The notes under the pieces are model-generated. The model saw only the letters and a program-made list of their open reading frames with translations, had not been told where the DNA came from and made no database searches. From positions 1-49,089 of the forward strand of contig CACLBB010000009.1 in the NCBI GenBank assembly GCA_902605035.1: 49,089 nucleotides of DNA, read 5' to 3'. Shown piece after piece: positions 19,678-48,802 of the stretch; position 1 is the first letter of the stretch, and each line of letters begins with the position of its first letter. The translations under genes and the position numbers were made by a program. This stretch comes from an uncultured Pelagibacteraceae bacterium (GTDB lineage Bacteria; Pseudomonadota; Alphaproteobacteria; Pelagibacterales; Pelagibacteraceae).

Positions 19678-20640
19678 TTACTTTTTGTTTATAAATTTTA
19701 CACATTCTAAGAGACTTTTAAAATTGCCTTTATTTTTTCCTATCAAATTAATGGCTGGTCCATGGTCGGGTGAAACCCGAATATAAGGCAAACCTAAGGT
19801 TAGATTGATGGCATTATACTTAAACAGCGTTTTAAATGGAGTTAAAACTTGATCGTGATACATCCCAACTAATACATTAAATTTTTTGTAATTAGTAATA
19901 AAAGATGTATCAGAAACTAAAGGTCCTTGTATGTTAATACCTCTTTTTTTAAGATCAGAAATCGCAGGAATAATCTTTTTCACTTCTTCACTATTCTTTT
20001 TTAATTCCCCATTATGGGGATTTAACCCTAACATTCCTATCTTGGGCCTAATTTTAAAAATTTTTTTAAAGTTTTTGTCTAAGCTTAAAATTTTTCTGAT
20101 TATAAATTTTTTAGTTATAACTTTTGACACATCTTTAACATTTATATGTGTTGTAATTGGCACAACCGAAAAAGATTTATTGTAAATCATCATTATCTCG
20201 GATTTATCTCGAATTTTACACATCGACGCAAAGTATTCCGTTACACCTATCTTATTAGTTTTTGTTAGTAACCTTTTGTCTATGGGGCAGTTAATTATTC
20301 CTTTTATATATTTTTCATTTGCTAGTTCATTTGCTAATTCCAAAGATTTCAATAAATATTTTGAAGACTCATACAACGGAACTTTGAAAGGATTTTTAAA
20401 ATTTAATGGGACATCAAAAATCTTTAAGTGATTATAAGAACTTTGTTCGGTAAAACTTTTTAATTTTAAAAGTTTTAATTTAACTTTTAATTTTTCAAAT
20501 TGTTTTCGCATCAATGAATAATTACCTATAAAAAAAATATTTTTTTTTTCACTTTTTTTTAATCTCTTCCAAGTTTTAAATATAATTTCTGAATTTATGC
20601 TATTTGGATCTGCAGTAATTATAATAATTTTATTTCTCAT
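19678..20640 (-). CDS. pdxA: 4-hydroxythreonine-4-phosphate dehydrogenase
   Basis: An NAD-dependent enzyme of the DXP-dependent pyridoxal phosphate pathway. Family segments seen are ITADPNSINSE near the N-terminus, CPIDKRLL, GLNPHNGE, GPLVSDTSF, and GMYHDQVLTPFKT, which holds a metal-binding histidine. HGPA is present near the C-terminus. Length is 320 aa, typical. The start overlaps the surA stop by four bases (ATGA). Confidence 0.95.
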   Translation of the reverse strand: MRNKIIIITADPNSINSEIIFKTWKRLKKSEKKNIFFIGNYSLMRKQFEKLKVKLKLLKLKSFTEQSSYNHLKIFDVPLNFKNPFKVPLYESSKYLLKSLELANELANEKYIKGIINCPIDKRLLTKTNKIGVTEYFASMCKIRDKSEIMMIYNKSFSVVPITTHINVKDVSKVITKKFIIRKILSLDKNFKKIFKIRPKIGMLGLNPHNGELKKNSEEVKKIIPAISDLKKRGINIQGPLVSDTSFITNYKKFNVLVGMYHDQVLTPFKTLFKYNAINLTLGLPYIRVSPDHGPAINLIGKNKGNFKSLLECVKFINKK

Positions 20641-21576
20641 TTTACTTCTATAGACGCTTTGTTTCTAATTTTAGATAAATGACTTCTAGAAAATAAATCT
20701 AAAATTTCATTCTTTTTTTGATTAATTATTTTATTTTTTGTTTTTACTATGTCAATTTTATTGATATCGAGTTTTTTTATTTCATTTAATTTAATAAATA
20801 AAATTGTCTCGTTTTGAAATATAGGCTCAGACACCTCCTCTAGGTTTAAATTATTTACAATATTTAAAATATTATTAGATAAAGCTTCAGCGTTAATCCA
20901 GCCGAGGTTTCCGCCCTCCATTGCTGTTAAAGAGACACTATATTTTATTGCTGTGTTTTCAAAACCTTCATTATCAATTTGATTTTGTATTTCTTTCACA
21001 AGATCATTGGTATTTTTATTATCTGTAATTTGTATTTCTATTTCAGATAATCTGAATTCTATAAGATTTTTTTTATTATCTATTATTCTTTTAAGTTCTT
21101 CATCAACCTCATTTTCATCAACACTTACTTTTTTTCCATATATTCCTAGTATTAATTGTTGCCAGGCTAGCTCGACTTTGATTTCTTCCTCATATAAATC
21201 ATAACTTAAATTATTTATTTTAAAGATATTTTTAAATTCTTTTAAATTATTAGCATAATTCTTAGAAATTCTTTTAATAAAATCACTAGTATCTAATTCA
21301 TCATTTAAAAGATTAGCTTTTATTACTTCTCTCTTTTTTAGTTTATAATTGATCAAGCTTTTTAGAGAGGTGTTTTTAAGTTTATCTATATTTGCTTGTG
21401 TCATATTTTCATTATTAAGAATAAGATTTGTCCTTATCTTATTCTTTAATTCATAAGAAGTGACAATTTGATCATCTACATTAACTATTATCTTACTTTG
21501 GAATGCTGAATAGGAATGATTAATATTTATAAAAAAAGATAATATGATTAAATATAAATATTTTTTTTATTCTCAT
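20637..21576 (-). pseudogene. surA: SurA-like periplasmic peptidyl-prolyl isomerase, N-terminus frameshifted
   Basis: SurA chaperones outer-membrane proteins such as LptD, encoded immediately upstream. The open frame from an internal ATG (21404) gives 255 aa with a parvulin domain (about EIEIQITDNKN... through GGNLGWI to ILFIKLNEI) but no signal peptide. The same frame continues upstream without stop to 21570 and encodes a convincing signal peptide and SurA start (KKYLYLIILSFFININHSYSA, then IIVNVDDQIVTSYEL). A perfectly placed ATG at 21576, right after the lptD stop, is one base out of frame, separated by a run of eight A (coding strand, 21568-21561). With seven A the gene reads through as 312 aa. 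It is a sequence error, a real frameshift, or a slippage site. Confidence 0.82.
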
Positions 21577-23889
21577 TTATTGACTAAAAGACGGAGAGTT
21601 AATATTTCCGAAGGGAACAAATGTGATTTTAAACATTAAAGAGTTTTCAGCTTCTAATTCAGAGTCTTCGTAGAATTCTCTTCGATAAACTATACCTGCT
21701 CTTAAACAGTCATTAAGATATTCATAACTTAGATTATAGTACTCCGCTGAATTAGTAACTAAATTTCTTTTAGTCTCTGCAGAAAAAAGACCATTAGAAC
21801 TTTTTACTAGGTCAATTTTAGCCCTCATGTACTCTTGATCTCCTATGTGCTTTTTCTCTTGAAGATAGCCAAAGTTGAACTTTATTGTCTCTAAATCAAT
21901 ATCTGTAGATATTTCATTAAAATTTAAGTCATTATAATTTTGATCAATCGCAAAATTATAATTTAAACTAGTTTTTTCATTAAGCTGATAGCTCATATTA
22001 CCGACCACATCAGAGAGTTTTTCATCTAGACTTGAAGAAGAAGGCATATTTTTGTTTTCTTTTTCGTTTACCACTTGCCCCATTTTAAGACCAAACTGTT
22101 TTTGATTGTTACTTCCTTGTAATTCATAATCAAATCCAATAGTGGCGCTTAATCCTCCCTCAAAGTTATTATTTGTGTTTAATCGATCCAAAGTAAATAT
22201 ATTTAAATGGTTTAATTTTGCTCCATTTGACTCTTTACGCATGTAATCTGGAGCATATCTCAAAAGAACTTTTGGAGTTAAAAGTTGAGTAAGTTTATTT
22301 TCAGTTTTTTTAAATAGATTTAATTCAGCTAAATACCCAAGGGCCCCAAAAACTTCACTTGTAGTATCCGTTTTAAACTCAGTATTTTTCGCTTCATAAT
22401 TGACATTTTTTAATTTACCTAAAATTTTACCGTTTAATCCAGATTTTAATTTTAGATTTCTATATTTCCAATCAACATCATTTATTAGAAATTTCGTAAA
22501 TTTATTAGTGTCGTAATTATGAACTTTTAAATTTGAGGTAAAATCTGCATTTCCATATTTATTACTAAATAAATTTCTATCCAAAATGATTTCGGGTAAA
22601 ATATATTCGTATTTGTCATTATAGTTTTCTTTTAAAGTTTCATATATACTTGCGTTTAGTCCAAGAAAAATATTTTCATTTTGATGAGTGAAATTAAGCG
22701 AATTTTCTAATGTTTCAGTTTCATATGAAGCTAAGTTAGATTTAATTTTATATAATTTGAGATATTTATCATCCGAAACATTTTGGAGAGATAATTCAAA
22801 GGTGTTTTCTGAACCATTATTACTTCTAAAATTTTTGATATATTTAGCAAATAAATGTGATCTATCACCGACTTTTTTAGATTTTTCTGATTCTCTAAAA
22901 CCTTCAGAGTAACCGAGATCGGCAATAATATTTGAGTTTTCAAAGGCCTGTCTATATTCTCCCAATAATAAAGGACGTTCAGAGTCGAACAGATTTCCAG
23001 TTAAAGTAAAATCTTTATCTTGATCCATAGCCCAGAAATATGGAATTTTAAAACCAGTTCCTAAGTTTTTTGAGCTAGTTAAAGTCGGAGGAAGGAATCC
23101 AGATCTTCTGTTTACTGATGGATCAGGGTGAGATAATTTTGGTAAATAAAAAATTGGTATATCATAAACTTTAATGACAGCATTGTCATAGTAAATAGTT
23201 TTATTGGTTTTATTGTGTTTCATTTTGCTGGCTTGAATAGACCAAGGGGGGCAAGCATCATTTTCTCTATAATCACATAAGGTAAAAATACTTTTTGTAA
23301 ATTCATTTTTTTTTTCATCAAATTTTATTGTATTAGCAAAAACTCGAGGTTTATTTTCTTTGTTTAGTTTGAAGCTTTTCTGATTCAGGAAAGCTTTAAT
23401 ATCAGTTCCAACTATTTCCCTCTTCTTTTCATCGATATAAACTTGAGAAAAATTATAAGAATTATTTTTAACATCTATAACTTTAATATTGCCAACAGAT
23501 TTAAAAAATTTTTTTTTTGTAAAATACTCAAAATTTTCTAGGAAGATATTATTTCCATCAAAATCTGTTATTACGGCTGGGTCTTTCGAGTTAATAATAT
23601 TTTTTTGATTATCAAAAAATATATTAGCACCTTTCAATACATATCCCTCTGATGTTGTTAATGTTGTTTCACCTTTACTATTTAATTTTTTTGACGTTTT
23701 ATCAAAAACTGCGTATTCAGTTTTAAAGATGTTATTTTGGTCATCTGTAGCTACAACTTTGTTCCTAAAAATTGTTAATTTTGTATCCTTATCAATTGAA
23801 ATAGTTTCAGCTTGGATATTCAAATTTTCAGCCCTTACAGGACTTAAGATAAAAATTATGAATAGAAAAAAAATAAAGTTACTTTTCAT
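21577..23889 (-). CDS. lptD: LPS-assembly protein LptD
   Basis: The outer-membrane beta-barrel that inserts lipopolysaccharide into the outer leaflet. It has a signal peptide (FIFFLFIIFILSPVRAEN), an N-terminal OstA/LptA-like beta-jellyroll (about residues 25-180; NIQAETISIDKDTKLTIF), the conserved PFYLP-like stretch (YDIPIFYLPKLSHPDPSVNRRSGFLPP region), and a long barrel. Cysteines occur near 205-214 (LCDYRENDAC) and near the C-terminus (LNDCLRAG), where family members form the assembly disulfides. Length is 770 aa. The start overlaps lptG by 11 bases; surA follows directly. Confidence 0.95.
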   Translation of the reverse strand: MKSNFIFFLFIIFILSPVRAENLNIQAETISIDKDTKLTIFRNKVVATDDQNNIFKTEYAVFDKTSKKLNSKGETTLTTSEGYVLKGANIFFDNQKNIINSKDPAVITDFDGNNIFLENFEYFTKKKFFKSVGNIKVIDVKNNSYNFSQVYIDEKKREIVGTDIKAFLNQKSFKLNKENKPRVFANTIKFDEKKNEFTKSIFTLCDYRENDACPPWSIQASKMKHNKTNKTIYYDNAVIKVYDIPIFYLPKLSHPDPSVNRRSGFLPPTLTSSKNLGTGFKIPYFWAMDQDKDFTLTGNLFDSERPLLLGEYRQAFENSNIIADLGYSEGFRESEKSKKVGDRSHLFAKYIKNFRSNNGSENTFELSLQNVSDDKYLKLYKIKSNLASYETETLENSLNFTHQNENIFLGLNASIYETLKENYNDKYEYILPEIILDRNLFSNKYGNADFTSNLKVHNYDTNKFTKFLINDVDWKYRNLKLKSGLNGKILGKLKNVNYEAKNTEFKTDTTSEVFGALGYLAELNLFKKTENKLTQLLTPKVLLRYAPDYMRKESNGAKLNHLNIFTLDRLNTNNNFEGGLSATIGFDYELQGSNNQKQFGLKMGQVVNEKENKNMPSSSSLDEKLSDVVGNMSYQLNEKTSLNYNFAIDQNYNDLNFNEISTDIDLETIKFNFGYLQEKKHIGDQEYMRAKIDLVKSSNGLFSAETKRNLVTNSAEYYNLSYEYLNDCLRAGIVYRREFYEDSELEAENSLMFKITFVPFGNINSPSFSQ

Positions 23890-29702: not shown

Positions 29703-30749
29703 ATGAAAAATTTAATATTTATTTGTTCTATATTAATTATTTTACTAAAAACTGGAAATGTTTTATCAGCTAACTACATTTTTAATGTTAATAATATAGA
29801 GATTAAACACAATATAAAAAACAAAGAAATATCAATTAATGAAGCATTCAAAGAAGCTTTTGATAGACTAATTAAAAGACTTTTACTTGAAGAAGATTAT
29901 AAAAAGGTTTCTAAAATAGAGTTGAGCAACATCAAGGAGCTGATTTCGTATTATCAAATAATAAATCAAAAAGACGAAGAAAAAGACGACAATCAAAATC
30001 AAAAAATAAATGTGTCTTTTGATAAAGACAGAATGCATAATTTTTTTTATAATAGAAATATTCTTTATTCTGACATAATAAATACTGAAGTTGTCATATT
30101 TCCTTTACTTAAAAAGGAAAATCAATATTTTATTTATACCAATAATTATTTTTACGATAATTGGAAAGAAGAAAAGTCAGAAAAATTAATTCAATATGTT
30201 CTACCTGCAGAAAATATTGAGAATATACAAAAAATAAATTCTAGCGAAAACAACATTTACAAAATTGAAATTTCTGATTTTTTTAAAGAATATGACACTG
30301 AAAATGTAGTTTTCGTTTACATTGAAATTGACAAACAAAGTGCGGAAATTTTTTTAAAAACAAGAATTGAACAAAAAATAATTAACAAAAATTTAGTAAT
30401 AAAAAATGAAGAAAAAGTAAATGATATAGATTTTTATAAGAAAATAATTTTTTCAATAGATAACGAAATTAGAGATTTAATAAAGTCACAAAATCTTATA
30501 GATGTTAGAACTCCTTCCTTTTTAAATGTTAAAATTAAATTAAATAAAAAAGATAATTTGGTAGAGTTCAAAGAAAGATTAAAAAAAATTGATTTGATCG
30601 ACAATTTTTATGTTCAAGAATTGAATAAAGACTATGTTTTGGTAAAAATCAAATATCTTGGTAAAATTAGTAAAATTATAAATAAATTAAAAAAAGAAGA
30701 TATTAACTTAAAAATGATAGCTGGCCAATGGCAGCTAAATATAATTTAA
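29703..30749 (+). CDS. Exported DUF2066-type protein
   Basis: A 348-residue protein with a signal peptide (LIFICSILIILLKTGNVLSA), so probably periplasmic. The part after the signal (KEISINEAFKEAFDRLIKRLL) and the gene position between purM and hda match the DUF2066 family, found at this place in many proteobacteria. No catalytic motif is visible and the function is unknown. Its stop overlaps the likely hda start by one base (TAATG). Confidence 0.72.
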   Translation: MKNLIFICSILIILLKTGNVLSANYIFNVNNIEIKHNIKNKEISINEAFKEAFDRLIKRLLLEEDYKKVSKIELSNIKELISYYQIINQKDEEKDDNQNQKINVSFDKDRMHNFFYNRNILYSDIINTEVVIFPLLKKENQYFIYTNNYFYDNWKEEKSEKLIQYVLPAENIENIQKINSSENNIYKIEISDFFKEYDTENVVFVYIEIDKQSAEIFLKTRIEQKIINKNLVIKNEEKVNDIDFYKKIIFSIDNEIRDLIKSQNLIDVRTPSFLNVKIKLNKKDNLVEFKERLKKIDLIDNFYVQELNKDYVLVKIKYLGKISKIINKLKKEDINLKMIAGQWQLNII

Positions 30750-34088: not shown

Positions 34089-34458
34089 GTGGATTTAAAA
34101 AAAATAGAAATTATGAAAATATTTTTTACCTGGTGGAATAGACAAACGTTTGGAACTTTTTTAAAAACACTTTTTTTTCGGAAAATTTGTTGGTAAAGAT
34201 GAATATGGAAATAAATATTATAAGAACAATAAAGATGAAAGATGGGTAATATATGCCAATAATATTGAAGCAACAAAAATTACTTCAGACTGGTTTTTAT
34301 GGATACACCATACAATAGACAAGATTCCCAGTCACAATGATAAAAAATTCAAATGGCAAAAAAAACATTTAGAAAACAAAACAGGGTCTAAAGATAGTCA
34401 TAAACCAATTAAAATTAAAAAAGATAGTTATGAAAAAAAATATCAAACTTGGAAATAA
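34089..34458 (+). pseudogene. NDUFA12-like (complex I B17.2 homologue) gene with a +1 frameshift
   Basis: No single frame covers this gene. From ATG 34113 (or in-frame GTG 34089) the frame reads KIFFTWWNRQTFGTFLKTLFF and then stops shortly after a T8 run at 34171-34178. One frame over it continues as GKFVGKDEYGNKYY, DERWVIYANNIEATKI and WFLWIHHTIDKIP up to TAA at 34458. Together these are the whole NDUFA12 family pattern (WWNxQTxGT, FVGxDExGNxYY, RWVIY, WxxWxHHTxD). With one T fewer the protein would be 114-122 aa. In alphaproteobacteria this complex I accessory protein is commonly encoded beside the DUF2155 gene, which overlaps its end by 29 bases here. Confidence 0.83.
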
Positions 34459-36715: not shown

Positions 36716-37151
36716 TTTTACAAAATTTATTCATTGCTTCTAATGCCATTATATAACCTTCAACTCCAAAACCACATAATACGGCAGTAGCTAATTTACT
36801 AATCATTGATTTATGCCTGAAATCTTCCCTGTTGTAAATGTTTGTAATATGTAATTCGATTATAGGTATTTTTAGTATCTTTAAAGCATCGTGAATAGCC
36901 ACTGAAGTGTGTGTGTAACCGCCAGCATTAATAATCAAGCCATGTTGGTCCTTCCTGGCTTTTTGTATTTCCTCTACTAACTTTCCCTCAATATTTGACT
37001 GGTATAAAGATAGGCTAATATTATTTTTATTAGCAAATTCTTTACAATTAATTTCGATATCTTCTAAAGTTATATTACCGTATTTTTCTTTTTCTCTTTC
37101 ACCTAAAAGGTTGAGGTTTGGACCATTAAGAATTATAATTTTTTTCATCAT
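36702..37151 (-). CDS. aroQ: 3-dehydroquinate dehydratase, type II
   Basis: Shikimate pathway enzyme converting 3-dehydroquinate to 3-dehydroshikimate. Family motifs: ILNGPNLNLLGERE with the lid tyrosine following in KYGN, GLIINAGGYTHTSVAI, and the catalytic histidine in IELHITNIYNREDFRHKS. Length is 149 aa, typical for the dodecameric type II enzyme. It starts 32 bases from the divergent thiS start and overlaps accB. Confidence 0.96.
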   Translation of the reverse strand: MMKKIIILNGPNLNLLGEREKEKYGNITLEDIEINCKEFANKNNISLSLYQSNIEGKLVEEIQKARKDQHGLIINAGGYTHTSVAIHDALKILKIPIIELHITNIYNREDFRHKSMISKLATAVLCGFGVEGYIMALEAMNKFCKNEDR

Positions 37152-37183
37152 TGTTTTTTATAAATTAGTTAGTTAACTCAATT

Positions 37184-39968: not shown

Positions 39969-40113
39969 TTTATTTGAATTCCTTTTAATCTATTGAAATT
40001 TGTAGTTATAATTTTTATCATACTTAAATATTATACAATTTTTTATTCAATTGCACTTATAATAACTGATAATGCCCTAAGATAGCCAAATTTTATGCTA
40101 TAGATTATTCAAG
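39969..40113. promoter_or_regulatory. Divergent promoter region between rne and mrcA
   Basis: This 145-base gap is the longest in the window and separates two divergent start codons, so it must hold promoters for both. A TATAAT on the minus strand (40035-40030) would give rne a leader of about 55 bases; a TATAAT on the plus strand (40058-40063) is a candidate for mrcA. No good -35 accompanies either, and the RNase E autoregulatory leader hairpins of E. coli are not recognisable. Confidence 0.35.
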
Positions 40114-42459: not shown

Positions 42460-43548
42460 TGGAAAATTTTGAAAATAAATTAACTAAATTGGAAAAAAAT
42501 TTGAAAAATATTAGGAGGTATCTTTGAAAACCAAAATATTGAATCAAAACTCAAAGCAATTGAAAAAAAACTTCTAGCTGAAAATTTTTGGAAAGATAAA
42601 ACTGAAGTAAAAAAGACAGTTAAAGAAAAAAAAATTTTTGAAAATATTTTAATCTCATATAACCAATCCACTAAAGAGATAACTAATTTAAAAGATTTAT
42701 ATAATTTAGCTTTAGAGGAAAAAAATGAGCAGATATTAGACGAGTGTATTTTAAAAATTGATCAATTAATTAAATTAAGCAAAGAGACTGAAATAAGTTG
42801 TTTTCTCTCTGGTGAAAATGATAATTTGAATATTTATCTTGAAATTCATGCTGGAGCTGGAGGTACAGAAAGTCAAGATTGGGCCGATATGTTGAGAAGA
42901 ATGTATTTAAAATGGTTTGATAAAAAAAATTTTAAATATGAAATAATTAGTGAGCATAAAGGTGATGAGGCGGGTATTAAGTCATCGACGTTGAGAGTAG
43001 AGGGAAAATACCTTTATGGTTTAATGAAATCTGAGTCTGGAGTTCATAGACTTGTAAGAATATCCCCCTTTGATAGTGGCGCGCGTAGACACACAAGTTT
43101 TGCAAGTGTTTGGGTTTATCCAGCAGTTGACGATGATATAAATGTTAAAATTGATGAAAAAGATCTAAGAATTGACACCTATAGATCTAGTGGAGCAGGT
43201 GGACAACATGTTAACACAACAGATAGTGCAGTAAGGATCACGCATTTGCCAACAAAAATAGTTGTTCAATGTCAAAATGAGAGATCTCAACATAAAAATA
43301 AAGAAACATGTTATAAAATGCTAAAGGCAAGACTTTATGAATATGAAATTCAAAAAAGAGATCAAGAAAATCAAAAAGAATTAAGTAACAAAACAGATAT
43401 AGGTTGGGGTCATCAAATAAGGTCTTATGTGTTACAACCTTATCAACTGGTAAAAGATTTAAGAAACAAAATTGAAAATTCCAACCCCTCAGAAGTTTTA
43501 GATGGAAATATTGATCAATTTATAGAAGCAGGAATAATTAACAAATAA
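42459..43548 (+). CDS. prfB: Peptide chain release factor 2, expressed by programmed +1 frameshift
   Basis: RF2 releases peptides at UGA and UAA. The zero frame begins with ATG 42459 (TAATG with mrcA) and stops at TGA 42525-42527 after 22 codons; moving +1 at CTT-T-GA (skipping 42525) continues to 43548, giving 362 aa, close to the E. coli length. The SPF recognition motif (RISPFDSGARRHTSFAS) and GGQ catalytic motif (SSGAGGQHVNT) are in the long frame. The slip site is preceded by a perfect AGGAGG. This is the known autoregulation: low RF2 lets the ribosome shift rather than stop. Confidence 0.96.
42513..42527 (+). promoter_or_regulatory. prfB: prfB programmed frameshift signal
   Basis: An internal Shine-Dalgarno AGGAGG (42513-42518), a TAT spacer codon, the slippery CTT (42522-42524) and the in-frame TGA (42525-42527) form the classic RF2 element. 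The base after the stop is A rather than the C found in E. coli. Confidence 0.94.
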
Positions 43549-47027: not shown

Positions 47028-48152
47028 ATGAAAAAAAAATATACATCTTTAGGTTTAATGAGTGGTACTTCTGGTGATGGAGTTGACGCTTCAATAATAA
47101 GCTCTGATGGAGCTGAAAGTTATCAAGTTATAAAGGAAAAATTTTTTGAGTATAATAATCTTATTTATAGAGAAATACATAATTTAAGGAATAAAGTTTA
47201 TATCAAATCAGATTTGAAAAAATATGAAAAAGAACTTCGTAATTTAGAGAGACAAATTACATTATCGCATTCAAAAATTATCAAAGAAATGAGTGAAAGT
47301 TTTAATTTTGATGTGGTAGGTTTCCACGGTCAAACTATCTATCATAACTCTAAAGAGAAGATTTCGAAACAACTTGGTGATGGAAAATTATTATCTCAAC
47401 TTACAAAAAAAGACATAGTTTATAATTTTAGAAATAATGATATTAAGAACGGCGGAGAGGGAGCTCCTCTAGCTTCAATATTTCATCAACTAATTGTTAC
47501 AAAAAAAAATGTTTATTTACCAGTATGTGTTTTAAACATAGGAGGAATATCTAATGCCACATTAGTAAAAGAACCTTCGGGTTCTTTAAATTTCAAAAGC
47601 AGAGATATAGGACCAGGCAATTGTTTAATTGACTCTTGGACTAGAAACAATTCGAAGAAAAAATTTGATCATGATGGATTGTTAGCATCAAAGGGCAATA
47701 TAAATGAAATAGTTTTTGAACAAGCTAATGAACTTTTTTCTAATAGACTAAATAAAAAAAGTTTATCATTGGATATAAATGATTTTGATGTTTCGTTTGC
47801 CAGAGGACTTTCTCTTGAGGATGGAGCTGCAACATTAACAGAATTTACTGCTAAAATAATTGGAGAGTCTTTAATGGATTTTTTATTTAAGGATAATAAT
47901 GATATTTTAAAGATTTTAGTTTGTGGAGGTGGTAGAAAAAATATGACTTTAATCAAAAAGATAAAAGAAAATATTTCAAAAAAAATGAGTTTAGAACTCA
48001 TAGATGACTACGGTATAGATGGAGATTTTATAGAATCGCAAGCTTTTGCATATTTAGCTATAAGAAGGATTTTAAATAAACCAATTTCTTTTCCAAAAAC
48101 TACTGGTTGTGTTAAGCCAACAATAGGTGGAGAAATTATCAAATTTAAATAA
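47028..48152 (+). CDS. anmK: Anhydro-N-acetylmuramic acid kinase
   Basis: It hydrolyses and phosphorylates 1,6-anhydro-MurNAc to MurNAc-6-phosphate in peptidoglycan recycling. The N-terminal GLMSGTSGDGVDAS is the family hallmark, with VGFHGQTIYH, LNIGGISNAT, DIGPGNCLIDSW and LVCGGGRKN also present. Length is 374 aa. It is divergent from tyrS. The tyrS-anmK neighbourhood is common in alphaproteobacteria. Its last 8 bases overlap the repaired end of the convergent hydrolase. Confidence 0.96.
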   Translation: MKKKYTSLGLMSGTSGDGVDASIISSDGAESYQVIKEKFFEYNNLIYREIHNLRNKVYIKSDLKKYEKELRNLERQITLSHSKIIKEMSESFNFDVVGFHGQTIYHNSKEKISKQLGDGKLLSQLTKKDIVYNFRNNDIKNGGEGAPLASIFHQLIVTKKNVYLPVCVLNIGGISNATLVKEPSGSLNFKSRDIGPGNCLIDSWTRNNSKKKFDHDGLLASKGNINEIVFEQANELFSNRLNKKSLSLDINDFDVSFARGLSLEDGAATLTEFTAKIIGESLMDFLFKDNNDILKILVCGGGRKNMTLIKKIKENISKKMSLELIDDYGIDGDFIESQAFAYLAIRRILNKPISFPKTTGCVKPTIGGEIIKFK

Positions 48153-48802
48153 GAGCAGTTTTTTCTTTGATATATTTTTCGATTTCTAATGAAAGCTCTT
48201 TTTTCTTTGTTTTTAAAAAAATGATTTGAGTTTTTGATTTTAGAAAAGATAACTTCTACTCCCTTTTGACTTTTAATCCTATTGTCTAACTCATTAATAC
48301 TTTCCTTTGTAACCAATTCATCATTTTCACTGTATATTACTTGACCAGAAGTAGGACAAGGAGCTAAAAAAGAAAAATCATAAACGTTGGGTTGTGGAGA
48401 TACAGCTATAAAATTATTTACTTCAGGTCTTCTCATAATAAGTTGCATGCATATAAGGGATCCAAATGAAAATCCTGAAATCCAACATTGGCTATAATCT
48501 AAATTTTGTCTTTCAATCCAGTCTAACGCTGCAGCAGCGTCTGATAATTCGCCTTGACCATTATCAAAAACACCATCACTTTTTCCAACACCTCTGAAAT
48601 TAACTTTAATCACTGAAAAACCATTTTCTAAAAAAATGTTATACATTAATTGCACTATTTTATTGTTCATAGTTCCTCCATATTGTGGATGAGGGTGCAA
48701 GACAATAGCAACTGGTGATCCAAATTTTGGATTCTTATAATATTTTGCCTCTAATCTTCCAGCTGGTCCCGGTATAAAAATTTCTAAACTTTTAGGTTTC
48801 AT
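48145..48802 (-). CDS. Alpha/beta hydrolase (dienelactone hydrolase-like), C-terminus apparently frameshifted
   Basis: A small alpha/beta hydrolase: IVLHPHPQYGGTMNNK, VNFRGVGKSDG, nucleophile elbow GFSFGS, a likely acid D in ENDELVT, and H in NSNHFF. The substrate is unknown. As written the frame runs to 48008 (264 aa), 145 bases into anmK on the opposite strand with a tail unlike the family. One frame over, after NHFF, the sequence reads as a normal ending (KELSLEIEKYIKEKTALI) and stops at 48145, giving 218 aa and an 8-base overlap with anmK. The shift fits a one-base excess in A6 or T7 of the coding strand (48199-48221). The catalytic histidine lies before it, so activity might survive. Confidence 0.78.

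Follow-up and report, generated by a model that had tools for sequence, protein, structure and literature searches.

The surA gene in the window (the whole stretch of 49,089 nucleotides analysed here) has a start codon that lies one base out of frame with its signal peptide and body. We infer a technical cause: with a probability of about 0.7, homopolymer over-counts in the assembly of a draft genome (30 contigs, 89.6% complete) explain this break and two similar ones in the same window. The locus would then be the ordinary surA of an AT-rich bacterium, SAR11/Pelagibacter-like to judge by its genes and base composition, with one surplus base near the 5' end, and that base would be a homopolymer over-count in the draft consensus. 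The living cell would most likely read a single frame from the ATG at 21576 into a secreted SurA of 312 amino acids. The features of the locus are as follows.

21577-23889, reverse strand: lptD-like open reading frame of 770 amino acids, whose TAA directly abuts the surA ATG.
21574-21576, reverse strand: ATG, by sequence at the place where relatives have their surA start codon; the relative G152 likewise has an ATG straight after the upstream stop.
21561-21568, reverse strand: A8 run, the most likely site of the surplus base (sequence and alignments with relatives).
21531-21537, reverse strand: T7 run, an alternative site of the surplus base (alignments with relatives).
21504-21563, reverse strand: predicted signal peptide coding region in the SurA frame, KYLYLIILSFFININHSYSA (translation; signal peptide judged by eye).
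20637-21563, reverse strand: SurA body, 308 amino acids and stop, with a SurA-like N-terminal domain and one PPIC-type rotamase domain (translation, Pfam and PDB match).
20637-21404, reverse strand: open reading frame of 255 amino acids from 21404, with neither a signal peptide nor a match to the SurA N-terminal domain (list of open reading frames, Pfam).

The ATG (21576-21574) follows directly on the stop codon of the lptD-like gene (TAA, 21579-21577) and is in the same frame. Its own frame encodes 18 residues, MRIKKIFIFNHIIFFYKY, and then a stop. The A8 run occupies 21568-21561 on the coding strand, and the SurA reading goes on in the next frame from there. This frame has a TAA immediately 5' of the run, is open from the run to 20637 (308 residues) without an internal stop, and in the window sequence and the list of open reading frames has no ATG, GTG or TTG upstream of 21404. 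It starts with lysines and a hydrophobic stretch ending in SYSA, followed by FQSKIIVNVDDQIVTSYELKNK and the whole SurA body. The given sequence does encode the surA signal peptide, yet in a frame shifted by one base from that of the ATG; in the 121 relatives examined it is in frame. The initial annotation had described this break across the A8 run and had stated that removing one A gives an uninterrupted protein of 312 amino acids. Its coordinates and readings are right by the window sequence and the translations, and arithmetic bears out the length, as one base fewer between the ATG and the body gives 312. A gene caller would probably report the 255-residue frame at 20637-21404.

By its database matches the SurA body is a real SurA-like protein, more than a chance reading. 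In Pfam the 308 residues match a SurA-like N-terminal domain (PF13624, SurA_N_3, 30.3 bits, cut-off 27.2) and a PPIC-type rotamase domain (PF00639, Rotamase, 37.4 bits, cut-off 21.7), with PF09312 at 20.8 bits, under its cut-off of 30.8. Among PDB chains the body matches E. coli SurA, 1m5y_A (E 6.7e-08). The product from 21404 keeps the rotamase matches alone and has no Pfam match to a SurA N-terminal domain. E. coli SurA (1m5y) and the window protein are alike in having a signal peptide, a SurA N-terminal region and a PPIC rotamase domain; the window protein is shorter and has one rotamase domain by Pfam, whereas E. coli SurA has two. The E. coli gene also adjoins lptD. The open reading frame at 21577-23889 has no Pfam match at E 0.01, and we take it to be lptD from the label in the initial annotation, the gene order and general knowledge. 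A search of the window's own genome (G000) for a second surA copy to compare gave one match in all.

The start of surA was read in relatives of the same genus, to which all other G numbers refer. The search covered 169 genomes, G000 included; 123 had a surA match, of which 122 were relatives, and the start could be read in 121 of these, G148 being left out as it matches residues 193-308 only. The initial annotation had named, as evidence against its reading, relatives with the same A8 run and a protein starting at 21404. None turned up among the 121 (89 and 32 more), each of which has an ATG in frame with its match, either upstream or where the match begins. Among the genus genomes with completeness of 90% or more and contamination of 5% or less, surA was found in 14 of 14. 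The nearest relative, G152 (L002, 69% identity), shares the window's arrangement of an ATG straight after the upstream stop, and its IILS comes after nine codons, MKFKLSNFC. Taking one A out of the run gives the window's MRIKKYLYL exactly the G152 spacing ahead of IILS. Judged from these sequences, the frame break is private to the window's genome among the relatives examined. A scan of genome contigs for a same-species strain with another run length returned a single distant betaproteobacterial locus, from a collection that may omit the genome itself and very near ones.

The surplus base lies most simply in the A8 run, as far as alignment can place it. The T7 run (21537-21531) begins 31 nt beyond the A8 and removing a base there would restore the frame too. 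When 89 of the 121 relatives were aligned globally, the A8 reading was the better fit in 47 cases and the T7 reading in 37, with five ties, and the nearest relative, G152, clearly favours A8 (19 vs 0). An A8 at this place does not in itself point to error: the surA of G084 (L189), a distant relative, opens with the same 17 bases, A8 included, and reads on in the frame of its ATG.

Two further genes of the window are broken in a similar way. The initial annotation reported surA without mention of these excesses, at 34.17 kb and 48.20 kb, which change the weighting of its explanations.

34113-34458, forward strand: NDUFA12 (complex I; PF05071), with a frame change in the T8 run at 34171-34178 (Pfam, tblastn and frameshift-aware alignment).
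48008-48802, reverse strand: alpha/beta hydrolase near the contig end, with a frame change past an A6 run at about 48202 (frameshift-aware alignment and orthologue lengths).

The NDUFA12 shift was called by protein-to-DNA alignment allowing frame changes with G113, G140, G128, G119, G152 and G126. The open frame is 97 amino acids in G000, against 115-148 in the 137 other full matches (140 rows minus its own and the partial G109 and G049). No open reading frame of at least 80 amino acids is listed at 34113-34458. The hydrolase shift was called by the same kind of alignment with G113, G140, G128 and G119; its reading frame runs on to 264 amino acids, where the orthologues in these four genomes have 218, and its open frame is 265 in G000 against 218-250, and mostly 222, in the listed relatives that match over the full length. 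The genus search matched the hydrolase as two pieces in different frames in G017 (C12:108482-109070) and G105 (C5:10171-10759) too, which means that other drafts also carry breaks in the hydrolase.

The A8 of surA, the T8 of NDUFA12 and the A6 of the hydrolase each hold one base beyond the frame of the relatives, and all are A/T runs. If homopolymers were misassembled, other conserved genes of the same assembly should show single-base indels in A/T runs too, and NDUFA12 and the hydrolase do. Homopolymer over-counting would leave just such a pattern, with several conserved and otherwise undamaged genes each gaining a private base in an A/T run, and the lack of a shared break in relatives, together with two similar breaks in the window, makes sequencing error most likely. 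An A6 is short for a typical homopolymer miscall, which counts against this reading. In the extract available of PMC3277595, at least 20% of genes may carry frameshift errors after 454 sequencing of low-GC genomes, biased to A/T runs and increasing with run length, while Illumina contigs of about 10x have homopolymer errors in about 1% of their genes. The window resembles the artificial frameshifts in AT-rich drafts of that extract in its single-base A/T-run indels, its otherwise intact conserved genes and the confinement of the breaks to one assembly, and differs from them in that the technical origin is here a probable one.

How widespread such breaks are was judged by comparing open reading frames of relatives with the window, using two-piece tblastn and protein-to-DNA alignment allowing frame changes. 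A strict screen, with the ATG-started open reading frames of G113 and G126 as queries, covered 45,992 bp of the window, and every call it made fell in the window, at NDUFA12 and the hydrolase. It called no shift in 94,609 bp in six of ten other stretches of G000 (the other four had no orthologous open reading frame), and none between G113 and G126 in 177,749 and 177,500 bp. The assembly as a whole does not look riddled with errors, and the absence of breaks in these 94.6 kb is a counter-point to over-counting. Three breaks in 46.0 kb against none in 94.6 kb have a chance of about 0.035 at an even rate, or 0.11 when the two automatic calls only are counted. The concentration in one contig hints that the cause may be local, such as thin coverage. 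The surA break was itself uncalled by the automatic screens, so similar near-start breaks elsewhere could be missed.

The tblastn screen found NDUFA12 five times and the hydrolase once in G000, all of which were kept. With all of G113 C1 as query it found NDUFA12 alone and missed the hydrolase. In G140 an extra base in an A9 run (L055, about 5524, reverse strand) breaks the orthologue of the window gene at 29703-30749; it was called with five query genomes by tblastn and three by frameshift-aware alignment, and its five tblastn calls were kept. Set aside in the tblastn screen were an 89-residue open reading frame, twice, and one of 453 residues from G119 (N-terminal 28 residues) in G140, and in G152 the 89-residue frame, again twice, and one of 106 residues from G119.

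A looser alignment screen, which took TTG and GTG starts as well, added calls in relatives that were weak or terminal. Its 15 calls in G000 comprised nine at the two breaks described above (five at 34.17 kb, four at 48.20 kb) and six that were set aside. Two of the latter, at 37150 and 34115, were N-terminal extensions of TTG-started query frames; that at 37156 came from an 89-residue G119 frame at the same place as 37150; and those at 40109, 40057 and 40025 came from one 106-residue G119 frame lying across the stretch between two genes. In this intergenic gap (39969-40113) the 106-residue frame aligns at 53% identity only with three frame changes, and a small gene has perhaps decayed here, or else the match is due to chance. 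The call at 37 kb made with the G113 query was gone with ATG-only starts.

The five relatives gave 23 calls in the looser screen. The six in G113 scored 9 to 19 and came from G140 and G128 queries. Three of the eight in G140 were the A9 case and were kept, two came from the window's altered hydrolase C-terminus, and three (12, 20 and 41) were set aside. G128 had five, two from the hydrolase and three (15, 18 and 39) set aside; the two in G119 were one alignment, scoring 9, and the two in G152 scored 10 and 35. The scores of 35, 39 and 41 all came from one TTG-started 89-residue G113 query. The calls set aside in relatives, judged as a group and not one by one, are probably start or end effects.

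A real, recent and private insertion of one base, made in the strain or cell sequenced as replication slipped on the run, or else an error of amplification, should the genome come from a single cell, is a rather unlikely source of the surA break. The gene would then be broken, or nearly so, in the sequenced DNA. Long A/T runs mutate easily, and the gene ranges of the window hold 90 A/T runs of at least eight. The part of PMC3017870 available to us states such easy mutation for endosymbionts. The G140 A9 case shows a similar extra base in another genome, and the remainder of the surA reading is free of stops, as in a young mutation. Against an insertion, one base in each of three conserved genes within 27 kb is many for real mutations, the group has few pseudogenes, and surA was found in all 14 of the more complete genus genomes. 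A young mutation or a single-cell amplification error would nevertheless give the identical sequence, which keeps this reading in contention alongside over-counting.

It is highly unlikely that the A8 is real and a slippage site, at which RNA polymerase at times drops an A and a share of the transcripts encodes full-length SurA. The small, AT-rich genome would suit such a process. In the portions available of the sources, insect endosymbionts are described as rescuing genes at poly(A) tracts, some genes having 12-50% of their transcripts corrected (PMC5009743, also PMC3017870). The poly(A)/poly(T) frameshifts of Blochmannia and Buchnera, thought to be rescued by slippage, are like that of surA in that a conserved gene of an AT-rich genome is broken only in a homopolymer (PMC3017870, in part, which cites Tamas 2008 and Wernegreen 2010). 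Some of them are said in the same excerpt to be conserved between populations or species, whereas the surA break is found in no relative examined.

Nor is the run itself conserved out of frame, as a slippage site would be, with 121 of 121 relatives in frame. Runs of at least eight in the first 72 nt of surA occur as A in 10, as T in 53 and as either in 59 of the 121, and all 10 with A keep an in-frame ATG. A break, called or observed, coincides with just two of the 90 runs in window genes, those of surA and NDUFA12. None of the 33 coding runs longer than eight lies at a called shift (in the 45,992 bp of the strict screen), and the A6 of the hydrolase would be even less slippery. Rescue of the surA frame needs one base lost or two gained. 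In the Buchnera transcriptome, according to the section available of PMC5574713, 151 of 157 insertions were in homopolymers, against 16 of 57 deletions, the insertions were mostly of one base, and that transcriptome-wide slippage study saw no restored frame. Slippage is thus unlikely, as the run is unconserved, longer in-frame runs are common, and rescue wants a loss while slippage mostly adds. No title on slippage in SAR11 was among the matches listed in a literature search, though this does not prove that none exists. At the surA start no RNA structure stands out (z 0.41), which argues against both slippage and ribosomal frameshifting.

It is barely credible that ribosomes undergo programmed frameshifting at the A8 or T7, or that the SurA frame opens with a non-standard start codon. 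The abutting lptD and surA are probably coupled in translation, which would favour such a mechanism, and the shift would have to be +1. The classical slip on an A run is -1, the wrong direction for surA, and none of the 121 relatives examined shares a break of this kind. No signal like that of prfB was noticed at surA. The prfB gene in the same window has AGGAGG followed by CTT TGA (42513-42527, forward strand), a programmed frameshift signal that we take to be the ordinary release factor 2 motif.

Of the three explanations offered by the initial annotation, the indel error is favoured, the fresh mutation is less probable, and slippage on the A8 is unlikely. The observation at the surA start is confirmed, its biology appears ordinary, and an assembly artefact is most likely. 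As a finding it matters little beyond the caution it gives: a contig like this, annotated automatically, would probably yield a SurA without a signal peptide, lack NDUFA12 or have it shortened, and end the hydrolase in a false C-terminus. By analogy with what has been proposed for endosymbionts, a free-living streamlined marine bacterium might tolerate A/T-run frameshifts through frequent RNA polymerase slippage. We give this very little credence; if true, surA, NDUFA12, the hydrolase and the G140 A9 case would be examples of such tolerance. Slippage, if borne out in RNA, would carry an endosymbiont phenomenon over to a free-living group.
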